DNA of 32,729 bases from Candidatus Aquitaenariimonas noxiae (GTDB lineage Bacteria > Omnitrophota > Gorgyraeia > Aquitaenariimonadales > Aquitaenariimonadaceae). The DNA is taken from assembly GCA_002780005.1 (NCBI GenBank), contig PEWV01000067.1, positions 1-32,729 on the forward strand. The letters are read 5' to 3'. A model generated the notes under the pieces. It searched no databases. It saw nothing but the letters and a program-made list of their open reading frames with translations, and was not told the origin of the DNA. Numbering within the stretch: the first letter of the stretch is position 1; the number at the start of each line of letters is the position of its first letter. A program made the position numbers and the translations under genes. Shown here in pieces: positions 1,607 through 28,549 of this stretch.

Positions 1607-1659
1607 TTAGGTCATAGCTCATAGGTGATAGGGCCTAAGAGCTATCAGCTAAGAGCTAA
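1607..1659. repeat. Heptad palindrome, TAGCTCA family (diverged copy)
   Basis: This imperfect inverted repeat has arms of about 26 bases built from 7-nt units (TTAGGTC, ATAGCTC, ATAGGTG / AGCTATC, AGCTAAG). It lies between the convergent ends of rpoN and the AbiE-like pair. The same family occurs at 4444-4513, 9390-9460, 11054-11122 and 12880-12948. It may act as a bidirectional hairpin terminator, but there is no clear T-tract. Confidence 0.8.
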
Positions 1660-4386: not shown

Positions 4387-4530
4387 GTATTGCGTATTGC
4401 GTCGTGCGTATCGCGAATTATTTTAGTCGCCACGACATTAGTTTTAGCTCTTAGCTCATAGCTGATAGCTCTTAGGACTCCTATCACCTATGACCTATGA
4501 GCTATGACCTAACTACGCTATACGCAATAC
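4387..4530. repeat. Composite nested heptad palindrome (copy between aroC and aroK)
   Basis: The outer arms are TATTGCG-type heptamers (left 4388-4415; right CTATACG-CAATACG, about 4518-4531). Inside lies a GTCGCCACGAC segment. The core is ten consecutive heptamers, 4444-4513: TTAGCTC TTAGCTC ATAGCTG ATAGCTC TTAGGAC, then TCCTATC ACCTATG ACCTATG AGCTATG ACCTAAC. The core is identical to the copy at 12880-12948, and the shared sequence extends to about 95 bases. Each arm can pair with the other to give a long hairpin. Confidence 0.85.
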
Positions 4531-5692: not shown

Positions 5693-5729
5693 AGTTAGTC
5701 CACCGTCCACAGTCCATAGTCCATAGTTA
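5693..5729 (+). repeat. Left arm of heptad palindrome flanking the four-helix-bundle gene
   Basis: The units are CACCGTC, CACAGTC, CATAGTC and CATAGTT, an exact 7-nt period, lying between the aroC promoter side and the stop of the four-helix-bundle gene. The stop codon abuts the repeat. The arm at 6091-6127 carries the same units in inverted orientation (TGTGGTC, TGTGGAC, TGTCGTC, TGTGGTC), so the gene sits in the loop of a large palindrome. Confidence 0.75.
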
Positions 5730-6080
5730 AGACGAAGACTTACGCAATGCTTGAAGCATCTTTATAATACTTTCTGCTTCAGTATATAATTTTTGAAATT
5801 TTTCTTCGCCTATTAACTCTCTTTTTTTACCTATATACAAACATGAAACAACCTCAATCCCTGATCTAATAGCATAACCTATAAACTGTTTGAATTCAGG
5901 ATTACTCTGACCTGTAGAGCCTTCAGCTATATTCAAGACTATTGAATCAGCCGCTCTTTTCACCTGAGAAGTTAGAATATATACTTCTTCTTTTGGGAAA
6001 TCTCTGGTTAACTGATGAATTTCATAACTGAGATCTACCGCTTTCTTCCAAACCTCTAATTTTTCAAATTTAAAACCCAT
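5727..6080 (-). CDS. Four-helix-bundle (S23/IVP-type) protein
   Basis: This 117-residue all-helical protein matches the 23S rRNA intervening-sequence protein family. The pattern is FEKLEVWKKAVDLSYEIHQL at the start, then TSQVKRAADSIVLNIAEG and a final helix ending in Leu-rich sequence. Members form four-helix bundles and usually pentamers; their biochemical role is unresolved. In some bacteria they are encoded inside rRNA insertions whose ends pair into a stem. Here the gene lies between aroC and pilD, which it has nothing obvious to do with, and is flanked on both sides by inverted GTCCACA/GTCCATA heptamers. No strong ribosome site is seen. The family call is confident; a mobile-cassette role is inference. 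Confidence 0.9.
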   Translation of the reverse strand: MGFKFEKLEVWKKAVDLSYEIHQLTRDFPKEEVYILTSQVKRAADSIVLNIAEGSTGQSNPEFKQFIGYAIRSGIEVVSCLYIGKKRELIGEEKFQKLYTEAESIIKMLQALRKSSS

Positions 6081-6090
6081 AAATTTCTTT

Positions 6091-6127
6091 GCTGTGGTCT
6101 GTGGACTGTCGTCTGTGGTCTAAACTT
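6091..6127 (-). repeat. Right arm of heptad palindrome flanking the four-helix-bundle gene
   Basis: TGTGGTC, TGTGGAC, TGTCGTC, TGTGGTC and TAAACTT follow one another with no gaps. Their reverse complement resembles the arm at 5693-5729. It lies just upstream of the four-helix-bundle start and downstream of pilD. Confidence 0.75.
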
Positions 6128-9344: not shown

Positions 9345-9389
9345 TTTTTACCACCTCATAAATATATCAACCAAATAATAGCAACTGTC

Positions 9390-9460
9390 TTAGCTCATAG
9401 CTCTTAGCTGATAGCTCTTAGGCATTTTCTATGAGCTATGACCTATCAGCTATCACCTAA
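9390..9460. repeat. Heptad palindrome, TAGCTCA family (leuA-ilvC gap)
   Basis: This is a diverged copy of the palindrome at 4444-4513. The left arm is TTAGCTC-ATAGCTC-TTAGCTG-ATAGCTC-TTAGG and the right arm is CTATGAG-CTATGAC-CTATCAG-CTATCAC-CTAA. It nearly fills the 129-base gap between leuA and ilvC. The unit order differs from the other copies although the overall shape is kept. Confidence 0.85.
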
Positions 9461-9473
9461 ACGTGGGTAGCTT

Positions 9474-10466
<993 letters not shown>

Positions 10467-11011: not shown

Positions 11012-11053
11012 GCTGATTACTCCACTTTATACAGCGTATCGTGAATCATACGG

Positions 11054-11122
11054 TTAGCTCGTAGCTCATAGCTGATAGCTCTTAGGACTCCTATCACCTA
11101 TGACCTATGAGCTATGACCTAA
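11054..11122. repeat. Heptad palindrome, TAGCTCA family (ilvH-ilvB gap)
   Basis: This copy differs at only one position (GTAGCTC for TTAGCTC) from the 69-base cores at 4444 and 12880. It is preceded by a GCGTATCGTGAATC remnant of the outer TATTGCG family. It occupies half of the 134-base gap between ilvH and ilvB. Confidence 0.85.
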
Positions 11123-11145
11123 CTCAGCAGTTCTCCGTACGTCCG

Positions 11146-12822
11146 TCATGCCATGCCCTCTATCATCCTGTTGATCGCTTCGCCTGCGGGCGCCATAGGA
11201 TAAACATTCTCTTCATTTTCGACGATAAAATCTATTAACACAACATTATCAATAGATAAAGCCTTATCTATCGCTTTTCTCACATCTTTCTTTTCCTTAA
11301 CGCGAATACCTGCCGCGCCATAACTCTCGGCAAGTTTAACAAAATCAGGGCAGGCGTTATCCTTAAGGCACGTGTAGGAATATCTTTTCTTATAAAAGAG
11401 TTCCTGCCACTGCCTCACCATTCCCAGACAGCCATTATTCAGGATCATTATTTTAACGGGTATTTTATTGCTGACCGCGGTCGCCAACTCCTGAATGTTC
11501 ATTTGTATAGAACCGTCACCCGCAATATCTATAACTGTCTTATCAGGCCTGCCGAATTTTGCGCCTATCGCAGCCGGAAAACCGTAACCCATCGTGCCAA
11601 GCCCCCCGCTCGATATAAAAGTGCGCGGCTCGTCATATTTGTACCACTGCGCTGACCACATCTGGTTCTGTCCAACCTCAGTGCAGATTATAGCCTTCCC
11701 TTTGGTCGCTTCATAAATTTGCTCAATAACATATTGCGGACGCAATTTCTCATCCTTCTTGTAGTAAAGAGGATGCTTATCGCGCCACTTCTCTATTTTG
11801 TCCGCCCATTCGCTCGCATTGACCTTTTTGACAAACTTATTTAGTTCCTTTAAAACGCATTTGCAATCGCCGACTATTGGAATATCCACATCAACATTTT
11901 TGCTGACATTGGCCGGATCTATATCTATATGAATTATCTTCGCGTGCGGGGCAAACGCGTCAAGCTTCCCGGTAACCCTGTCGTCAAATCTCGCGCCTAT
12001 GGCGACTATAAGATCTGATTCCATGATAGCGTGGTTAGCGTAAGCTGTCCCGTGCATACCCAGCATGCCCAAAGAAAGTTCATGAGTCCCGGGAAATGCG
12101 CCCATGCCCAGCAAGGTAGTGGTAACAGGTATATGGGTCTTCGTGGCTAACTCATAGAGTTCTTTTGCCGCGTTCGAAATAATAACCCCTCCGCCGGCGT
12201 ATATTATCGGCCGCTTACTTGATAGTATTGCTTTTGCCGCTTTTTTTATCTGGCCTATATGCCCTTCGTAAGTCGGCTTGTAACCCCTAATATTAACTTC
12301 TTTCGGATAATTAAATTCTACCTGTTGCAGCTGAACGTCGCTCGGTATATCTATAAGCACAGGCCCGGGCCTTCCGGTCCTTGCAATATGGAACGCTTCT
12401 TTTATAACGCGGGCTAAGTCTTTGGCGTCTCTCACCAGGTAATTGTGCTTAGTGATAGGACGCGTTATCCCAACCATATCCGCTTCCTGAAACGCGTCAT
12501 TCCCTATTAAAAATGTTTTTACCTGGCCTGTAAGCGCAACCATAGGTATAGAATCCATATAAGCATTGGCTATCCCTGTAACAAGATTGGTCGCGCCCGG
12601 CCCGCTTGTCGCAAGGCAGACTCCGACTTTTCCGGTTGCCCTCGCGTAACCGTCAGCGGCATGCGCGGCTCCCTGTTCGTGACGCGTCAAAATAAACTTC
12701 ACCGGGGCGTCGTAGAGCTTGTCAAAAATAGGAAGCACAGCTCCGCCCGGATAGCCGAAGATTATATCGACCTTTTCCATCTTAAGGGACTCCAGTAATA
12801 TTTCCGCACCGCTTAACTTCAT
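11146..12822 (-). CDS. ilvB: Acetolactate synthase large (catalytic) subunit
   Basis: IlvB is the thiamine-diphosphate enzyme that condenses two pyruvates to acetolactate, or pyruvate with 2-oxobutyrate to acetohydroxybutyrate. The 558-residue product has the N-terminal domain with the catalytic Glu region [15 protein letters not shown]...[19 protein letters not shown]. The central FAD domain follows ([27 protein letters not shown]). The C-terminal thiamine-diphosphate motif [15 protein letters not shown] ends with Asn-Asn. The residues at the usual herbicide and quinone pocket look standard. GGAG precedes the ATG. The subunit gene ilvH follows, separated by a palindrome. Confidence 0.96.
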
Positions 12823-12841: not shown

Positions 12842-12960
12842 GCGTATTGCGAATCGTATTAGTCACCACGACATTAGTTTTAGCTCTTAGCTCATAGCTG
12901 ATAGCTCTTAGGACTCCTATCACCTATGACCTATGAGCTATGACCTAACTACACTATACG
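12842..12960. repeat. Composite nested heptad palindrome (copy between ilvB and ilvD)
   Basis: The outer arms are GCGTATTGCGAAT (12842-12854) and CTATACG (12954-12960). Between them come AGTCACCACGAC and then the ten-heptamer TAGCTCA core (12880-12948), identical to the core at 4444-4513. The right outer arm supplies the last codon and stop of ilvD. Confidence 0.85.
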
Positions 12961-14609
12961 CTGAAAACTGCGCCTTTGCTCGCCGAAGTGACAAACTTCG
13001 CGTATCTCGCGAGATATCCGTCTTTCACTTTAGGCTCTGGCGCTCTCCATTTACTTAATCTTTGCTTGATCTCCAGATCCGACAGCTTAACGTCAAGCGT
13101 TCGCTTCGGAATATCCATAGAAATAATATCCCCGTCCTGCACAATGGCTATAGGGCCGCCTGCCGCTGCTTCGGGAGAAATGTGCCCGATACATGGACCT
13201 CTCGTCCCGCCGCTGAACCTTCCGTCAGTAACGAGCGCAACGCTTTCGCCAAGCCCCATCCCCACGATAGCGGAAGTGACTGAAAGCATCTCCCTCATGC
13301 CGGGCCCGCCTTTCGGGCCTTCGTACCTTATAACCACAATGTCACCTGCTTTTATCTGCTTATTCATAACGGCTTCCATAGCCTTTTCTTCCGCGTCGAA
13401 AACTCTCGCCGTTCCTGTAAACGTCATCATCTTGCTCGAGACAGCGGCCTGTTTCACGACAGCGCCCTCAGGGGCAAGTGAACCTTTAAGAATAGCTATT
13501 CCGCCTTCATGGGCATATGGTTTATTCATAGGCCGTATAATTTCATCTTCGTACGGCTTAGCTTCCCTTGCGATCTGATTAATTGTTTTGCCGCTAAGCG
13601 TAGTGCAATTTTTTAGGATCGACTGCAGCCTGTTCAAAATAACAGGAACTCCTCCGGCCCATTCAATATCTTCCATGAGATAGTCTCCGGACGGTTCAAT
13701 ACTTGTGATACGCGGCGTATGCCTGCTTATATTATCGAATAGATCGATAGGCAATTCTATTCCTGCCTCATGCGCCATAGCTATCAGATGAAGTACCGTG
13801 TTGCTTGAACCACCCATAGCCATGTCGACCATGATCGCGTTCTCGAACGCCTCTCTTGTCAAAATAGTTCTCGGTAAAACTTCGCGCCGCACAAGATTGA
13901 CGATCAACTCTCCGCTCTCAAGCGCGATCCTGTCTTTATTAGCGAAACCTGCCAAAGCCGTGCCGCAACCGGGCAAACTCAAGCCTAAGACTTCCACAAG
14001 ACAGCTTTGCGTGTTCGCTGTATAAAGCCCCTGGCATGACCCCTGCCCGGGACAGGCGCACATCTCTATTTCTCCTGCTTCTTCAGCCGAAATTTCTCCA
14101 TTTTTAATTTTCCCGACAAGTTCAAATGTATCCCTCACCAAGGAAAGCTTCTTACCTCTGTATCTCCCTGAGATCATAGGGCCTGCCGTAACAATGATAG
14201 AAGGAATGTTGAGCCTGGCGATAGCCATAACCATGCCCGGTGTAATTTTATCGCAATCTGTAAGACAGACCAATCCATCGAAACAATTCGACTTAACAAC
14301 GCTCTCCACGGCATCGGCAATAAGTTCCCTGGTAGGCAGGGAATATCTCATTCCTGAATGCCCCATAGCTATACCGTCGCAAACTCCAGGTATCCCAAAG
14401 AAAAAAGGAACTCCGCCGCCGCTGGCTATGCCGCGCTCAATAAAGCGTTCCAGCCGCCTCATGCCTATATGACCCGGTATAATGTCAGAAAAAGACGTAG
14501 CTACACCTATAAACGGCTTTGCCATATCCCGCTTACAAATACCGGTAGCGTACAAAAGCGCCCTATGCGGCGTTCTTTCCGGACCTCTCTTTATGCGATC
14601 GCTTCTCAT
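12954..14609 (-). CDS. ilvD: Dihydroxy-acid dehydratase
   Basis: IlvD dehydrates 2,3-dihydroxy-isovalerate or -methylvalerate to the 2-oxo acids, using an iron-sulfur cluster. The 551-residue product shows the cluster cysteines in [16 protein letters not shown] and CACPGQGSC. It also has the family block [18 protein letters not shown], the [14 protein letters not shown] loop and [29 protein letters not shown] precedes the ATG. It is the first gene of the biosynthetic transcription unit, downstream of a consensus sigma-70 promoter and a 75-base leader hairpin. The stop codon and last codon lie in the edge of a composite palindrome. Confidence 0.97.
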
Positions 14610-14827: not shown

Positions 14828-15070
14828 AGTCACCACGTCACAAGGTCACAACGTCACCAGCAAAAGATAGTAGATGATAGAGTACCAAATCACAATATAC
14901 AAATCACAAATTACAAACAATAAACAATATACAATGACCAAAATTACAAAAAAGAAATTTTGTTTATTGTGATTTTGGATTTGTAATTTGTTTGTGATTT
15001 GGTGCTTGTAATTTGGAATGTATACAAAACCTTTTAACTGGTGACTTGGTGTCGTGGTGACTTGGTGACT
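14828..15070. repeat. Nested palindromes filling the ilvD upstream gap
   Basis: The outer arms are octad units: GTCACCAC GTCACAAG GTCACAAC GTCACCAG (about 14829-14860), answered by GGTGACTT GGTGTCGT GGTGACTT GGTGACTT (15040-15071). Inside lie CAAATCA/CAATATA/CAAATTA heptads (14884-14950) and their inverted partners (14955-15015). A short GCGAACA-GCGTACG-GCGAACT heptad run precedes the block at 14803-14824. No coding sequence is visible between 14772 and 15080. Confidence 0.75.
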
Positions 15071-15080
15071 TTGCTACAGG

Positions 15081-17915
15081 CTAGGGCTTCATTTTCTTGT
15101 AAACTTCGTAGTAGTGAACGGCTATACCTAATAAATTGGGGGTATTGAAGTAGTTCCTGAATTTGGCCAGTTCCGCTTCCATATACGCTTCGCCTTCCTC
15201 ATAGAATGAAACGCGGTCGGCATAAGGATCGGGACTGTTATCCTGCACTTCTACGGCAACCCAGGTAGGCCCATAATTTATTTCATTTTCTGCATTATCT
15301 ATCATACCGTTAGTCCCTTCCGCAAAATCTCTGTAATCCATAATACATACTGAATCCGCTATATCACTTACATATTGGTTGAGCGGCCTGGCTGTTTTAT
15401 CACCGTTCCACGTATCAGTCATCCCGTCAAACCAAAACGGAATAACGCTTATAAATGGGTATCTAGCCGCAATTATATTCTTACAACCCTGAACCCAGTC
15501 TATATACCACTGAACCCTCATGTAAATATTGCTTTGCCATCCGGTCTGATCTATGGCATAAGGTTCCGTATCGTCTATGATGCCGTCGAATTGCCCATAA
15601 GCCTCTACGGCTCTTACATAATCCCAGCCTTCTTCGCTCGAAAGCATCTGGCCTTGGACATTGGCGCTTTGAGGAACCGCCCACCAGGGCCTGCCCTGAA
15701 GGCCATAGACTTTTATATTCTTTAAATGTGCTTCATTTATAAAAGCTGTATAAAAACCCTTGTCAATATCGGTCCCGCAAACCACACCTTGGCTGTTTAA
15801 AAATATAGTACTTATGCCTTTTACATAGCAGAAATCGAGAAGCTCTTTTCTTTTTACGGGATTATTAACAATGCCTTTACCGCCAGGATTGAATTCCCAT
15901 CTGAAATCTTCGGACGAGACGCCTTCGTTTTCAGTGACCCTTATAAAATCTATCCAGGCGTGGCCTTTCGCGCCCGTAGTAGGATAAAATCTCAGCTGTA
16001 CGACTTTATCAGACCAGTTGGCATTTGCCGAAAGGTCAAAAGAATAAGTATGAAGATCCCCGTCATTATTAATAGCGAAATTCACGGAATTTTCAGGCTT
16101 GTACTCGGTATCGCCTACTTTCTTCCAGACAAATTTCGCTTCGTTAAAATCCGTATCTATAATTTTGTAAGATATGCTCACTTTTTTAAGTATAGAAGTA
16201 TCGATAATAAGTCTCGGGCTTTCCATCGATGAATCCGAGTTTTTTAGTGCAGTGTTTATAAAACCATCACCAATGATATCAAAATTTCCAAGATCTCCTT
16301 GCGGCTTCCACCCCTCTGAGCCACCCGCGTCCCACGCATACCAAACAAAAATTGCCCTGTCACCTAAATTGCTGGGCTGGGCGTCGTTGAAAACTCTTAT
16401 CGACGCGGCCGCTTCTGAAACGTAATTACTATCAGATGCCTGGAGCGTTACATTATAATCGCCCGGGGTATCATAAATATGCGTAGTAACCGGACCTACT
16501 GCCTGCGTGCCGTCCCCTAAATTCCACACGCAACCCGGCGTCCATATAGGATTGTAGATAGTTTTAAAATCGATCTGCAGAGGTGCGATGCCTGTCTCGG
16601 GGGCAGCGTCTATGGATACGGCATGCAGCGGTTTTTGCACCGTTATTAAAACAGGTGCCGCGGAAGCCGTAATTCCGTCTTTATCCCTGATGGTTAATCT
16701 TACCGTATATAAGCTTGACGGGTTGAAGGTATGAGAAATCGAAGTCACATCAGTGGCTGTTGTGCCATCATCAAAATCCCACCAATATTTTCTTATAGGA
16801 ACGGGGCCGCTGGCTACAGCCTCAAAGTCAACCTTTAGCGGCGCTTCGCCTTCGATCACAGACGCATTAATAGAGCATGTCGGGAAATCACCCGGTGATT
16901 TAATAATTATAGTTATAGTTTCGGAATTGGTTAGTTGGCCGTCTGAAGCGGTAAATGTAACCGCATATCTGCCGACTTTTACAAATTTATCCAACCAACG
17001 AAGTTTATACACGACATATCCGGGCTCTGAAGATTCCTGGAAAAATCTCGCGCCTGCCGGCAAATTAACCGCTGTTATGGTAAGGGCATCCCCGTCATTA
17101 TCCGTGGCGGTGATCGCCTTTATAACAAACGTCTCGCCTTCTTTGCCCTGCTGGTTGCCTATCGGATTAAGCCTCGGAGGCAGATTGACATCGTCTATTG
17201 TTATAGTTATGGCCTCGGAATCCGTGAGTTTCCCGTCAGAAACCGTAAAGGTGACATTGTACACCCCCGGCTTGACAAATCTATCAAGCCAGCGGAGTTT
17301 GTATTCTATATACCCGGGCCGTGAAGCTACCTGGAAGAATCTCGCGCCTGCCGGCAGGTTTTCTGCCGTTAGCGTAAGCATATCCCCGTCAGGGTCCGAG
17401 GCCTTAATAGCCTTTATAGCGAAAAGCGTGCCTTCTGTTCCATGCTGGTTGCCTATCGGATACAGTTCCGGAGCATCATTAAGGCTATGTATCGTTATAG
17501 TTATAGTTTCGGAATCTGTCAACTGCCCGTCAGAGGCCGTAAACGTAACCGAGTACACGCCCGGAATGACAAATCTGTCGGGCCAACTAAGTTTGTATTC
17601 TACATATCCGGGTTGCGAAGTTACCTGGAAGAACCGCGCGCCGCTAGGCAGGTTATCGGCTGTTATCGTTAATGTATCGTTGTCCGGATCCATCGCTACG
17701 ATCTTCGGTATAACGAACGTTTGGTTCTCATTCCCTTCCTGGCCGCCTATAGGCTCTAGGACGGGCGGGTTATTCGAACTGACAACATTTACAGTGACAA
17801 GCACCATATCAAAAGTTTCCGAGTAGGCAAAATTAGAAAAGATCATCCCGCCTATTATCGCAAGGGCGATAACCGCGATGACCTTCCCGGCATGTACACT
17901 ATTCAAGCTAAACAT
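15081..17915 (-). CDS. Giant secreted Ig/PKD protein with TIM-barrel-like C-terminus
   Basis: This 944-residue exported protein has a signal peptide of about 33 residues ending in FAYS. Three Ig-like repeats of about 95 residues follow (about 50-340), each with NPP...LxPIGxQ, DxDxDxLTITAxNLPxGARFF and YxVTFTASDGxLTxSETITI. Two PKD domains come next (about 345-510; YWWDFDDGT, CVWNLGDGTQ), then a beta-sandwich that may bind carbohydrate (about 520-660; WSDKVVQLRFYP). The C-terminal 280 residues alternate strands and helices. They carry FDGIIDDTEPYAID, VIPFWFDGM and SVCIMDYRDF, resembling a glycoside-hydrolase-type TIM barrel with acidic residues at strand ends. The substrate is unknown. It follows the chaperone-like gene by seven bases and is probably surface-exposed. 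Confidence 0.7.
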   Translation of the reverse strand: MFSLNSVHAGKVIAVIALAIIGGMIFSNFAYSETFDMVLVTVNVVSSNNPPVLEPIGGQEGNENQTFVIPKIVAMDPDNDTLTITADNLPSGARFFQVTSQPGYVEYKLSWPDRFVIPGVYSVTFTASDGQLTDSETITITIHSLNDAPELYPIGNQHGTEGTLFAIKAIKASDPDGDMLTLTAENLPAGARFFQVASRPGYIEYKLRWLDRFVKPGVYNVTFTVSDGKLTDSEAITITIDDVNLPPRLNPIGNQQGKEGETFVIKAITATDNDGDALTITAVNLPAGARFFQESSEPGYVVYKLRWLDKFVKVGRYAVTFTASDGQLTNSETITIIIKSPGDFPTCSINASVIEGEAPLKVDFEAVASGPVPIRKYWWDFDDGTTATDVTSISHTFNPSSLYTVRLTIRDKDGITASAAPVLITVQKPLHAVSIDAAPETGIAPLQIDFKTIYNPIWTPGCVWNLGDGTQAVGPVTTHIYDTPGDYNVTLQASDSNYVSEAAASIRVFNDAQPSNLGDRAIFVWYAWDAGGSEGWKPQGDLGNFDIIGDGFINTALKNSDSSMESPRLIIDTSILKKVSISYKIIDTDFNEAKFVWKKVGDTEYKPENSVNFAINNDGDLHTYSFDLSANANWSDKVVQLRFYPTTGAKGHAWIDFIRVTENEGVSSEDFRWEFNPGGKGIVNNPVKRKELLDFCYVKGISTIFLNSQGVVCGTDIDKGFYTAFINEAHLKNIKVYGLQGRPWWAVPQSANVQGQMLSSEEGWDYVRAVEAYGQFDGIIDDTEPYAIDQTGWQSNIYMRVQWYIDWVQGCKNIIAARYPFISVIPFWFDGMTDTWNGDKTARPLNQYVSDIADSVCIMDYRDFAEGTNGMIDNAENEINYGPTWVAVEVQDNSPDPYADRVSFYEEGEAYMEAELAKFRNYFNTPNLLGIAVHYYEVYKKMKP

Positions 17916-27419: not shown

Positions 27420-27783
27420 CTTCGGGCATTAGTGTGAATATTGTTAACTTATAATCCTCGTTACGTTCTTTCCAATTTATATTTACCTCTACATCCCTCA
27501 ATCTGGCGTCTTCCGTTTTTGTAACTTCGACATTCCAGCTGAATGCCGGATATCCTTCGAACGTCCCTTTTTCGGGCCAGATATCCTGAGGCGTGTTTTC
27601 CAGAGTGAAAAATACTTCATCCGCCAGGAAACTTGCCGCATTATAATATTTTGTATTTTCCAATGCCTTAAGACATGTCGAAAATGAGCGGGATACTGTT
27701 GTAAGTCCTACGGCCAAGATAGCTACCGCTATTATTACTTCAAATAATAAGATCCCTTTACTATTTTTCGGTATCGATCGCAT
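27406..27783 (-). CDS. gspI: Minor pseudopilin GspI
   Basis: The 125-residue product begins MRSIPKNSKG-ILLFEVIIAVAILAVGLT, a prepilin leader with Glu at position 5 and Ile instead of Phe at position 1. The short C-terminal domain (FLADEVFFTLENTPQDIWPEKGTF, RDVEVNINWKE) fits GspI. It overlaps the end of the gspH frame by 23 bases and the gspJ start by 14. Confidence 0.85.
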   Translation of the reverse strand: MRSIPKNSKGILLFEVIIAVAILAVGLTTVSRSFSTCLKALENTKYYNAASFLADEVFFTLENTPQDIWPEKGTFEGYPAFSWNVEVTKTEDARLRDVEVNINWKERNEDYKLTIFTLMPEDEQT

Positions 27784-28522
27784 TAGCCTGGCCTGTTTCT
27801 TCCTTTACCCTTACAAGTTTTACCCTGCCGTTTTGATTCTTCAAGGAAATCTTAAAATCTTCGCTTCTCCCGCTTGGATAAAAAACCAGGGTTGAAGCAG
27901 CGCCTTCTAGGTCGATTCCGCGCGGCGTTGAAAAAACTCTTCCAAGCCTTCCTGTTACCCGAGTAAAATAATCCGGCTTTGATGGGTCATTGTTTTCGGT
28001 CAGCCAATATATGTTTTTTTCAAAGTCAAAATAAATTTTTGTAGTAACTATTTCGGCAACAGCCTTAGCTTGGGCGTAATTCATAAATTTGGCTATATTA
28101 TACGAAGCTTCATCAAGCTCTATATCAGAAAAAGTTTTTCTGAACAAAGGAGTTGAAATGCCCACCAATACAACAATAATAAGCGCGACTAACGCGAGCT
28201 CTATGAGCGTAAACCCCGTTACAGATAGGAAACGCTTCATACGATTTTTGAGATACCGTTTCCCCATACCCGATTTCAAATATTTTTCCCTTGCTGAAGC
28301 ATCTTGTTTGTCTACGCAAGCCCCGTTAGAAATAAGATGCCAGCGGTATCTGTCATTTCTAACGGGGCAAGCTTCATAATATATTAATTCAAAAGGACCT
28401 CTGCCTTTTGTAGAAAATACTCTACCGTTATTATGCTCCTCAAAGCGTTTCCGTAAATTATTGGTAAAACCCGTATACAGTTTACCATCTTTTTTACTTT
28501 TAATTACATAAGTATAAAACAT
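27761..28522 (-). CDS. gspH: GspH pseudopilin now fused to a transposed GIY-YIG domain
   Basis: The open frame gives 253 residues in two unrelated halves. Residues 1 to about 95 are a small GIY-YIG endonuclease (YTYVIKSKKDGKLYTGFTNNLRKRFEEHN, later SAREKYLKSGMGKRYLKNR). They are interrupted by 17 residues from a nested palindrome (PVRNDRYRWHLISNGAC). From about residue 103 the chain is a complete pseudopilin, G-FTLIELALVALIIVVLVGI, with a GspH-type domain. The nuclease half belongs to a mobile element (28214-28549) that split the native gspH. An internal ATG at 28240 would give a 159-residue product with the leader MKRFLSVTG-FTLIEL, which prepilin peptidase should process. Its ribosome site is poor. 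Which product is made is unknown. Confidence 0.85.
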   Translation of the reverse strand: MFYTYVIKSKKDGKLYTGFTNNLRKRFEEHNNGRVFSTKGRGPFELIYYEACPVRNDRYRWHLISNGACVDKQDASAREKYLKSGMGKRYLKNRMKRFLSVTGFTLIELALVALIIVVLVGISTPLFRKTFSDIELDEASYNIAKFMNYAQAKAVAEIVTTKIYFDFEKNIYWLTENNDPSKPDYFTRVTGRLGRVFSTPRGIDLEGAASTLVFYPSGRSEDFKISLKNQNGRVKLVRVKEETGQANAIDTEK

Positions 28523-28549
28523 AATTTGTAATTTGTATCTGTAACGGGG
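28214..28549 (-). mobile_element. GIY-YIG element with 14-bp inverted ends inserted in gspH
   Basis: The ends are perfect inverted repeats CCCCGTTACAGATA (28214-28227) and TATCTGTAACGGGG (28536-28549). TAAA (TTTA on the coding strand) flanks both sides (28210-28213 and 28550-28553); the duplication could be five bases. The element is 336 bp, or 289 bp without the nested palindrome at 28321-28367 and its duplication. It encodes one small GIY-YIG nuclease, starting at 28522, whose frame has no stop inside the element and runs out through the right end. Removing the element and one TTTA restores a standard pseudopilin start (MRFLRKNKKG-FTLIEL). CAAATTA heptads precede the nuclease ATG. I know no named family with these ends. 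Confidence 0.85.
28321..28367. mobile_element. 47-bp palindromic element nested in the GIY-YIG gene
   Basis: Perfect 13-base inverted ends (CCCCGTTAGAAAT / ATTTCTAACGGGG) surround 21 bases. CAAG is duplicated on either side (28317-28320, 28368-28371; up to GCAAGC if counted generously). Insertion plus duplication adds 51 bases, 17 codons without a stop, so the nuclease frame stays open. The ends match those of the larger element in 11 of 13 positions, with the eight outermost bases CCCCGTTA identical. It looks like a short non-autonomous relative. Confidence 0.8.

Follow-up and report, generated by a model that had tools for sequence, protein, structure and literature searches.

The S23 (23S-IVP) proteins form a family first found in rRNA intervening sequences (IVSs), and in some groups several copies occur per genome; we know of no catalytic activity for S23. 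Among the described systems, the IVS in the 23S rRNA of Coxiella burnetii encodes S23, is closed by a 28-bp terminal stem, and carries tandem GACAGAT heptamers just upstream of the ATG (according to strain, two or three plus one degenerate); RNase III excises it, cutting at the first heptamer (PMC4990558). The published description treats it as a single locus and draws no connection to a wider heptad architecture or to copies without the gene. Heptameric repeats have been studied separately: TAACTGA heptamers were reported from Beggiatoaceae, cyanobacteria and Bacteroidetes (MacGregor 2015, PMC4679880), and the G-rich heptads of Xanthomonas and Nostoc (GGGAATC, GGGGA(T/C)T) are transcribed and lie on the sense strand, no more than 50 bp from stop codons (Rehm 2015, PMC4692102), in neither case with a link to S23. 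These STRR-like repeats are tandem, with about four units near the stop codons of aligned genes, and some form inverted pairs, as in the locus described below. In the open-licence PMC full texts, no paper was found that joins S23 and heptads beyond the Coxiella IVS.

We analysed a stretch of 32,729 nucleotides from the Candidatus Aquitaenariimonas noxiae genome (hereafter the window), in which an S23 element was delimited as follows.

5695..6123, minus strand: whole element, about 429 nt, between the pilD stop (6162) and the aroC Shine-Dalgarno/ATG (about 5659); ends backed by a second copy on contig C9
5727..6080, minus strand: S23/23S-IVP four-helix-bundle gene, 117 aa, ATG to TAA (PF05635, TIGR02436)
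6086..6123, minus strand: 5' arm of tandem heptads ACCACAGACGACAGTCCACAGACCACAG, ending about 12 nt upstream of the ATG (inverted repeat and TRF)
5695..5732, minus strand: 3' arm of tandem heptads CTATGGA/CTGTGGA/CGGTGGA, abutting the S23 stop (inverted repeat and TRF)

The ORF matched PF05635 (23S_rRNA_IVP) at 1e-34 and TIGR02436 at 1e-32. The 38-nt arms are inverted, 76% complementary and spaced 353 nt apart, and TRF detected a period-7 array on either side (4.4 copies at 5697-5727 and 4.3 copies at 6092-6121). The first-pass annotation had described a four-helix-bundle gene bracketed by inverted heptad arrays, and this was borne out, with one array at the stop and the other just before the ATG. 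Its view that a biosynthetic operon is interrupted stood only in part: the element sits in the pilD-aroC intercistronic gap of the cluster aroE-pilD-S23-aroC-aroK, all on the minus strand, but cuts no gene. The suggestion of an rRNA IVS-like architecture outside rRNA agreed well with the Coxiella IVS, which shares with the window element a PF05635 ORF, complementary ends forming a terminal stem, a length of about 430 nt and heptamers before the ATG (PMC4990558); the Coxiella IVS lies within 23S rRNA, from which RNase III excises it, whereas the window element lies between pilD and aroC. The tandem 7-nt units in few copies and the intergenic position are also those of STRR-like repeats. The arms paired in the predicted RNA fold of the cassette, while the full-cassette fold showed no significant extra stability over shuffled sequence (z -1.44); an extra-stable fold of the whole cassette was rejected on that value.

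The AF2 model of the window S23 protein is all-helical (pLDDT 95), and its nearest solved folds were 2GSC (TM 0.96), an S23 protein of X. campestris, and 2RLD, with five chains each. Although an X. campestris S23 protein had been crystallised, the STRR-like repeats were reported without a link to S23. The model also resembles the four-helix bundle of the diversity-generating retroelement (DGR) protein Avd (4DWL, TM 0.79); the two differ in that identity is 4%, the source genome has no reverse transcriptase (RT), and heptad arms are not a DGR feature.

We then examined the surroundings of other S23 genes. All five intact PF05635 copies of the source genome lie between inverted heptads, with a different unit in each. 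PF05635 was present in 37 of 59 same-class relatives, from which 29 S23 loci were sampled, each from a different genome; a second sample comprised 80 named loci spanning about 20 phyla, among them cyanobacteria, Bacteroidota, Patescibacteria, Planctomycetota and Methanophagales. The collection scan used the closer alignment set A2, the diverse alignment A1 having no usable stretch. The inverted-heptad build was seen in most loci of both samples, in bacteria and archaea. A strict arm test (inverted-repeat score of at least 15 plus a period of 7-9 in the arm) was passed by 96 of 148 S23 genes from about 20 phyla and failed by about one third of the homologues. Among 147 other complete ORFs only 3 passed, as did none of 364 windows drawn at random from these loci (Fisher p 8e-35). 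The first-pass annotation had asked whether homologues lie between similar arms and had named homologues lacking repeats as the finding that would make the association accidental; most S23 loci carry arms. These data confirmed that the heptad-flanked S23 cassette is real and general.

The flanks of S23 genes had autocorrelation peaks at lags 7, 14 and 21, and in two independent locus sets lag-7 autocorrelation was 0.42-0.49 against a background of 0.25-0.30; the period was 8 or 9 in a minority of loci and otherwise 7. In two independent sets, complementarity between the arms of one locus was 17-18, compared with 8 for arms paired across mismatched loci. The paired stem had a median of 33 nt, with 4.6 units per arm (103 loci); this number of units and the five chains of the crystal structures are together a hint, suggestive only, that S23 may bind the units. 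Nearly every S23 copy has its own unit, yet the two arms of each copy match, and the order of variant units was mirrored between the arms (22.2 versus 19.1 with units shuffled, p 4e-12). This suggests that the palindrome is maintained for its pairing and is more than two arrays of one unit.

The placement of the cassettes was polar. Where both neighbours point the same way, S23 was sense-oriented in 119 cases and antisense in 5. On average the upstream arm is G-rich and the downstream arm C-rich, a trend opposite to that of the window element, whose 5' arm is the C-richer one. Sense-only placement fits either an RNA step or selection for read-through expression.

Several palindromes of the window carry no gene:

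1608..1659, plus strand: gene-less heptad palindrome TAGGTCA/CTAAGAG, 14 nt past the stop of ORF 272-1594
4443..4512, minus strand: gene-less heptad palindrome, TAGGTCA..CTAAGAG in sense, 22 nt past the aroC stop
9389..9460, minus strand: gene-less TAGGTCA/CTAAGAG-family palindrome, 13 nt past the stop of ORF 9474-10466 (ilvC-like)
11052..11123, minus strand: gene-less TAGGTCA/CTAAGAG-family palindrome, 22 nt past the stop of ORF 11146-12822 (ilvB-like)
12879..12948, minus strand: gene-less TAGGTCA/CTAAGAG-family palindrome, 5 nt past the stop of ORF 12954-14609 (ilvD-like)

Gene-less palindromes began a median of 6 nt past a stop codon; the G-rich arm preceded the other in 16 of 17, several of these being one family (the TAGCTCA-family palindromes are not mutually independent). 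Gene-less copies need no expression, and their polarity leans toward a strand-specific step, on small numbers.

A further copy of the window element, with an internal deletion, lies elsewhere in the source genome (G000:C9:3416-3594); it keeps the window-element arms and both ends of the ORF, lacks the middle, and has different flanks. Since this copy has the same arms in other surroundings, it supports the boundary drawn for the window element, and since both ORF ends are kept, the gene was lost there. The first-pass annotation had reasoned that repeat copies with no gene inside, if found everywhere, would speak for an accidental association. Palindromes without a gene are indeed present, but the C9 copy at least is an internal-deletion derivative, and most have other units.

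Other repeats were noted in passing. On contig C9 (2186-3594), many GTCCACA-family palindromes cluster with the deleted copy. At 14829-15071 of the window, in the gap downstream of ORF 15081-17915, octads GTCACAAC / TGGTGACT surround heptads CAAATCA / TTTGTAA, giving the appearance of a palindrome within a palindrome, and a 294-bp tandem repeat of about 2.3 copies (16981-17669) lies inside the same ORF (minus strand). The gene at 27761-28522 (minus strand) is an in-frame fusion of a type IV pseudopilin N-terminus and a GIY-YIG nuclease domain (6.6e-15), with TAATTTG heptads (28522-28537) at its start, and on contig C16 (7852-10184) heptad arrays adjoin or lie inside a pilB-like reading frame.

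Arms and gene travel together. Protein pairs with at least 70% identity had shared arm sequence in 74% of cases, compared with 0.9% at 40-50% identity, and close S23 proteins had arms in common even when they came from different phyla and sat at unrelated sites; a cyanobacterial S23 gene with TTCCCTA arms, for example, was found at unrelated sites. Presence and absence could be followed at fixed junctions. At the TraM-hyp junction of Nostoc plasmids, the cassette is present in pNe_5 and pC052_D, four plasmids (including p057_A and p057_K) are empty with a spacer of about 50 nt, and pNsp_c has a gene-less element of GGGAAC units between matched flanks of 97% identity; gene-bearing and gene-less loci (L288, L331) have the same unit. 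No target-site duplication was visible at these occupied and empty Nostoc junctions, where the spacer was partly replaced and about 41 nt differed. Among 68 Flavobacterium gmk-nadD junctions, we found the S23 cassette, many different gene-less palindromes, or almost nothing, and comparison of one locus (L297) with other Flavobacterium revealed gene-bearing and gene-less palindromes of the same unit. Four gmk-nadD loci (L239, L249, L294, L317) have another small gene at the junction, seemingly DoxX-like. The expectation that junctions would exist with and without the cassette thus held for the Nostoc plasmids and for Flavobacterium gmk-nadD, aroC-pilD itself not being among them.

In 12 Flavobacterium genomes, the gene-less palindromes were mostly unlike the sampled S23 arms of the same genome and matched them only in G193; autonomous/non-autonomous pairing within Flavobacterium genomes was rejected on this match in 1 of 12. 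In Calothrix PCC 7103, seven near-identical S23 copies (L208-L214) lie in a larger repeated block with a transposase-looking upstream ORF. More than 1 kb is common to the copies, including this neighbouring ORF, and we rejected them as clean proof of transposition; because the shared sequence includes an ORF that resembles a transposase by eye, S23 appears to ride along as a passenger there. A search for phage carriage of S23 returned no match in INPHARED.

Heptads and S23 also co-occurred at the genome level. In sampled stretches, S23-positive relatives (n=20) had 47 period-7 arrays in 681 kb (69/Mb) and S23-negative relatives (n=10) had 2 in 313 kb (6/Mb), a contrast of about 10-fold (p 4e-6; per-genome p 0.007) that is not fully corrected for kinship; control periods 9-12 did not differ between the groups in the same stretches. 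The density in the source genome, of which 847 kb was sampled by stretches, was 111/Mb. The correlation could reflect a shared third factor.

Neither RT nor Y1 transposase accounted for the heptads. The source genome (97% complete) gave no PF00078 match for RT; it has five Y1_Tnp genes, and no inverted heptad arms were found at the flanks of the Y1 genes. One relative (G008) has heptads and one S23 gene, yet neither Y1_Tnp nor RT, while the S23-negative relatives lack heptads although Y1_Tnp occurs in 6 and RT in 4 of the 10. We therefore rejected RT/DGR and Y1 transposase as heptad drivers, since neither tracks the heptads, and no enzyme was identified as the mover of the palindromes. A reading in which a Y1/HUH transposase (RAYT, IS200-like) or an RT (DGR) acts on the palindromes, with S23 as an Avd-like accessory, would draw on the five Y1 genes and on the Avd-like fold; in the light of the distribution above, it is largely refuted, and we give it a negligible probability.

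A more serious competitor, which we nonetheless regard as unlikely, treats the palindromes as host intercistronic RNA elements (mRNA stabilisers, processing stems or REP-like sequences) that change in situ through slippage and gene conversion; S23 would then be an RNA-binding regulator of the host and no part of a mobile element. Their location just past stop codons, their sense polarity, the wide differences in the gmk-nadD palindrome among Flavobacterium species, and the transcribed, sense-strand heptads within 50 bp of stops (Rehm 2015, PMC4692102) speak for it. The same gene and arms at unrelated sites and across phyla, the occupied and empty junctions in Nostoc and Flavobacterium, and the second, internally deleted copy in the source genome argue against it. 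Less probable still is an RNA-processed, IVS-like cassette in which RNase III would cut the paired arms and remove the S23 segment, making the insertion harmless; the arms would serve chiefly for this, with mobility left to chance recombination. The Coxiella precedent of excision at the first heptamer (PMC4990558), the mirrored unit order, the 119:5 sense bias and the pairing of the arms in the predicted fold are consistent with it, but it leaves unexplained both the 7-9-nt tandem period kept while the sequence changes and the genome-wide excess of heptads with S23, and the fold z-score is weak. RNase III processing of cassettes outside rRNA, taken as such, carries low confidence. Homing of S23 genes into pre-existing heptad palindromes of an unrelated repeat class would account for junctions at which palindromes of one unit occur both without and with the gene (L331 versus L288; L297 versus other Flavobacterium); it appears very improbable, for close proteins carry the same unit across phyla and sites, heptads are nearly absent from relatives that lack S23, and the C9 copy, with both ORF ends, has lost its gene.

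We favour, as the probable explanation, that the window element is one copy of a widespread REPIN/MITE-like mobile family that also includes the S23-encoding rRNA IVS; that the S23 cassette is an element in its own right is held with high confidence. It resembles REPIN-RAYT systems in its short, dispersed intergenic palindromes and in a linked gene flanked by the same repeats (PMC3116915, PMC2817692). It differs in that the gene there is a Y1 HUH transposase and here S23, and in that the arms here are copy-specific tandem 7-9-mers placed only in sense. With MITEs it shares inverted ends and an internally deleted derivative (the C9 copy), but neither a transposase nor a target-site duplication was found for the S23 element.

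In the mobile-family model, the element would be a short S23 gene between inverted arrays of about four to five tandem 7-mers (8- or 9-mers in some copies), which would enter an operon gap just past a stop codon in the sense direction; being inserted in sense within an operon, it would therefore be read from the host transcript. The most likely role of the S23 pentamer is to bind its cognate tandem units, whether in RNA or in single-stranded DNA, and to bring the folded stem-loop to replication, repair or RNA machinery; the stem-loop would be the mobile form, and a host activity would copy it. Internal deletion, and probably copying in trans as well, would give rise to the gene-less palindromes, as with REPIN/RAYT and MITE/transposon pairs, and the S23-encoding rRNA IVS would be the same element located in 23S rRNA. 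That S23 drives the spread of heptad palindromes carries moderate confidence. Only tentatively, and at somewhat less than even chances, do we propose the full version, in which S23 would be the driver of a near-universal mobile class with no known transposase or RT, its pentamer reading tandem 7-9-mers at about one unit per subunit and spreading sense-strand palindromes into operon gaps.

If that version is true, the class would take in the S23 rRNA IVSs and would explain the heptameric repeats seen in cyanobacteria, Xanthomonas, Flavobacterium and others. The S23 protein, the rRNA IVS and the heptameric repeats of cyanobacteria, Xanthomonas and Beggiatoaceae, previously separate subjects, would then belong to one element family, and S23 would gain a testable job, namely, the recognition of tandem 7-9-mers of copy-specific sequence. 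With S23 and its arms, the joint change of a protein and its repeat can be followed, and they raise the question of how an element spreads without a recognisable enzyme.
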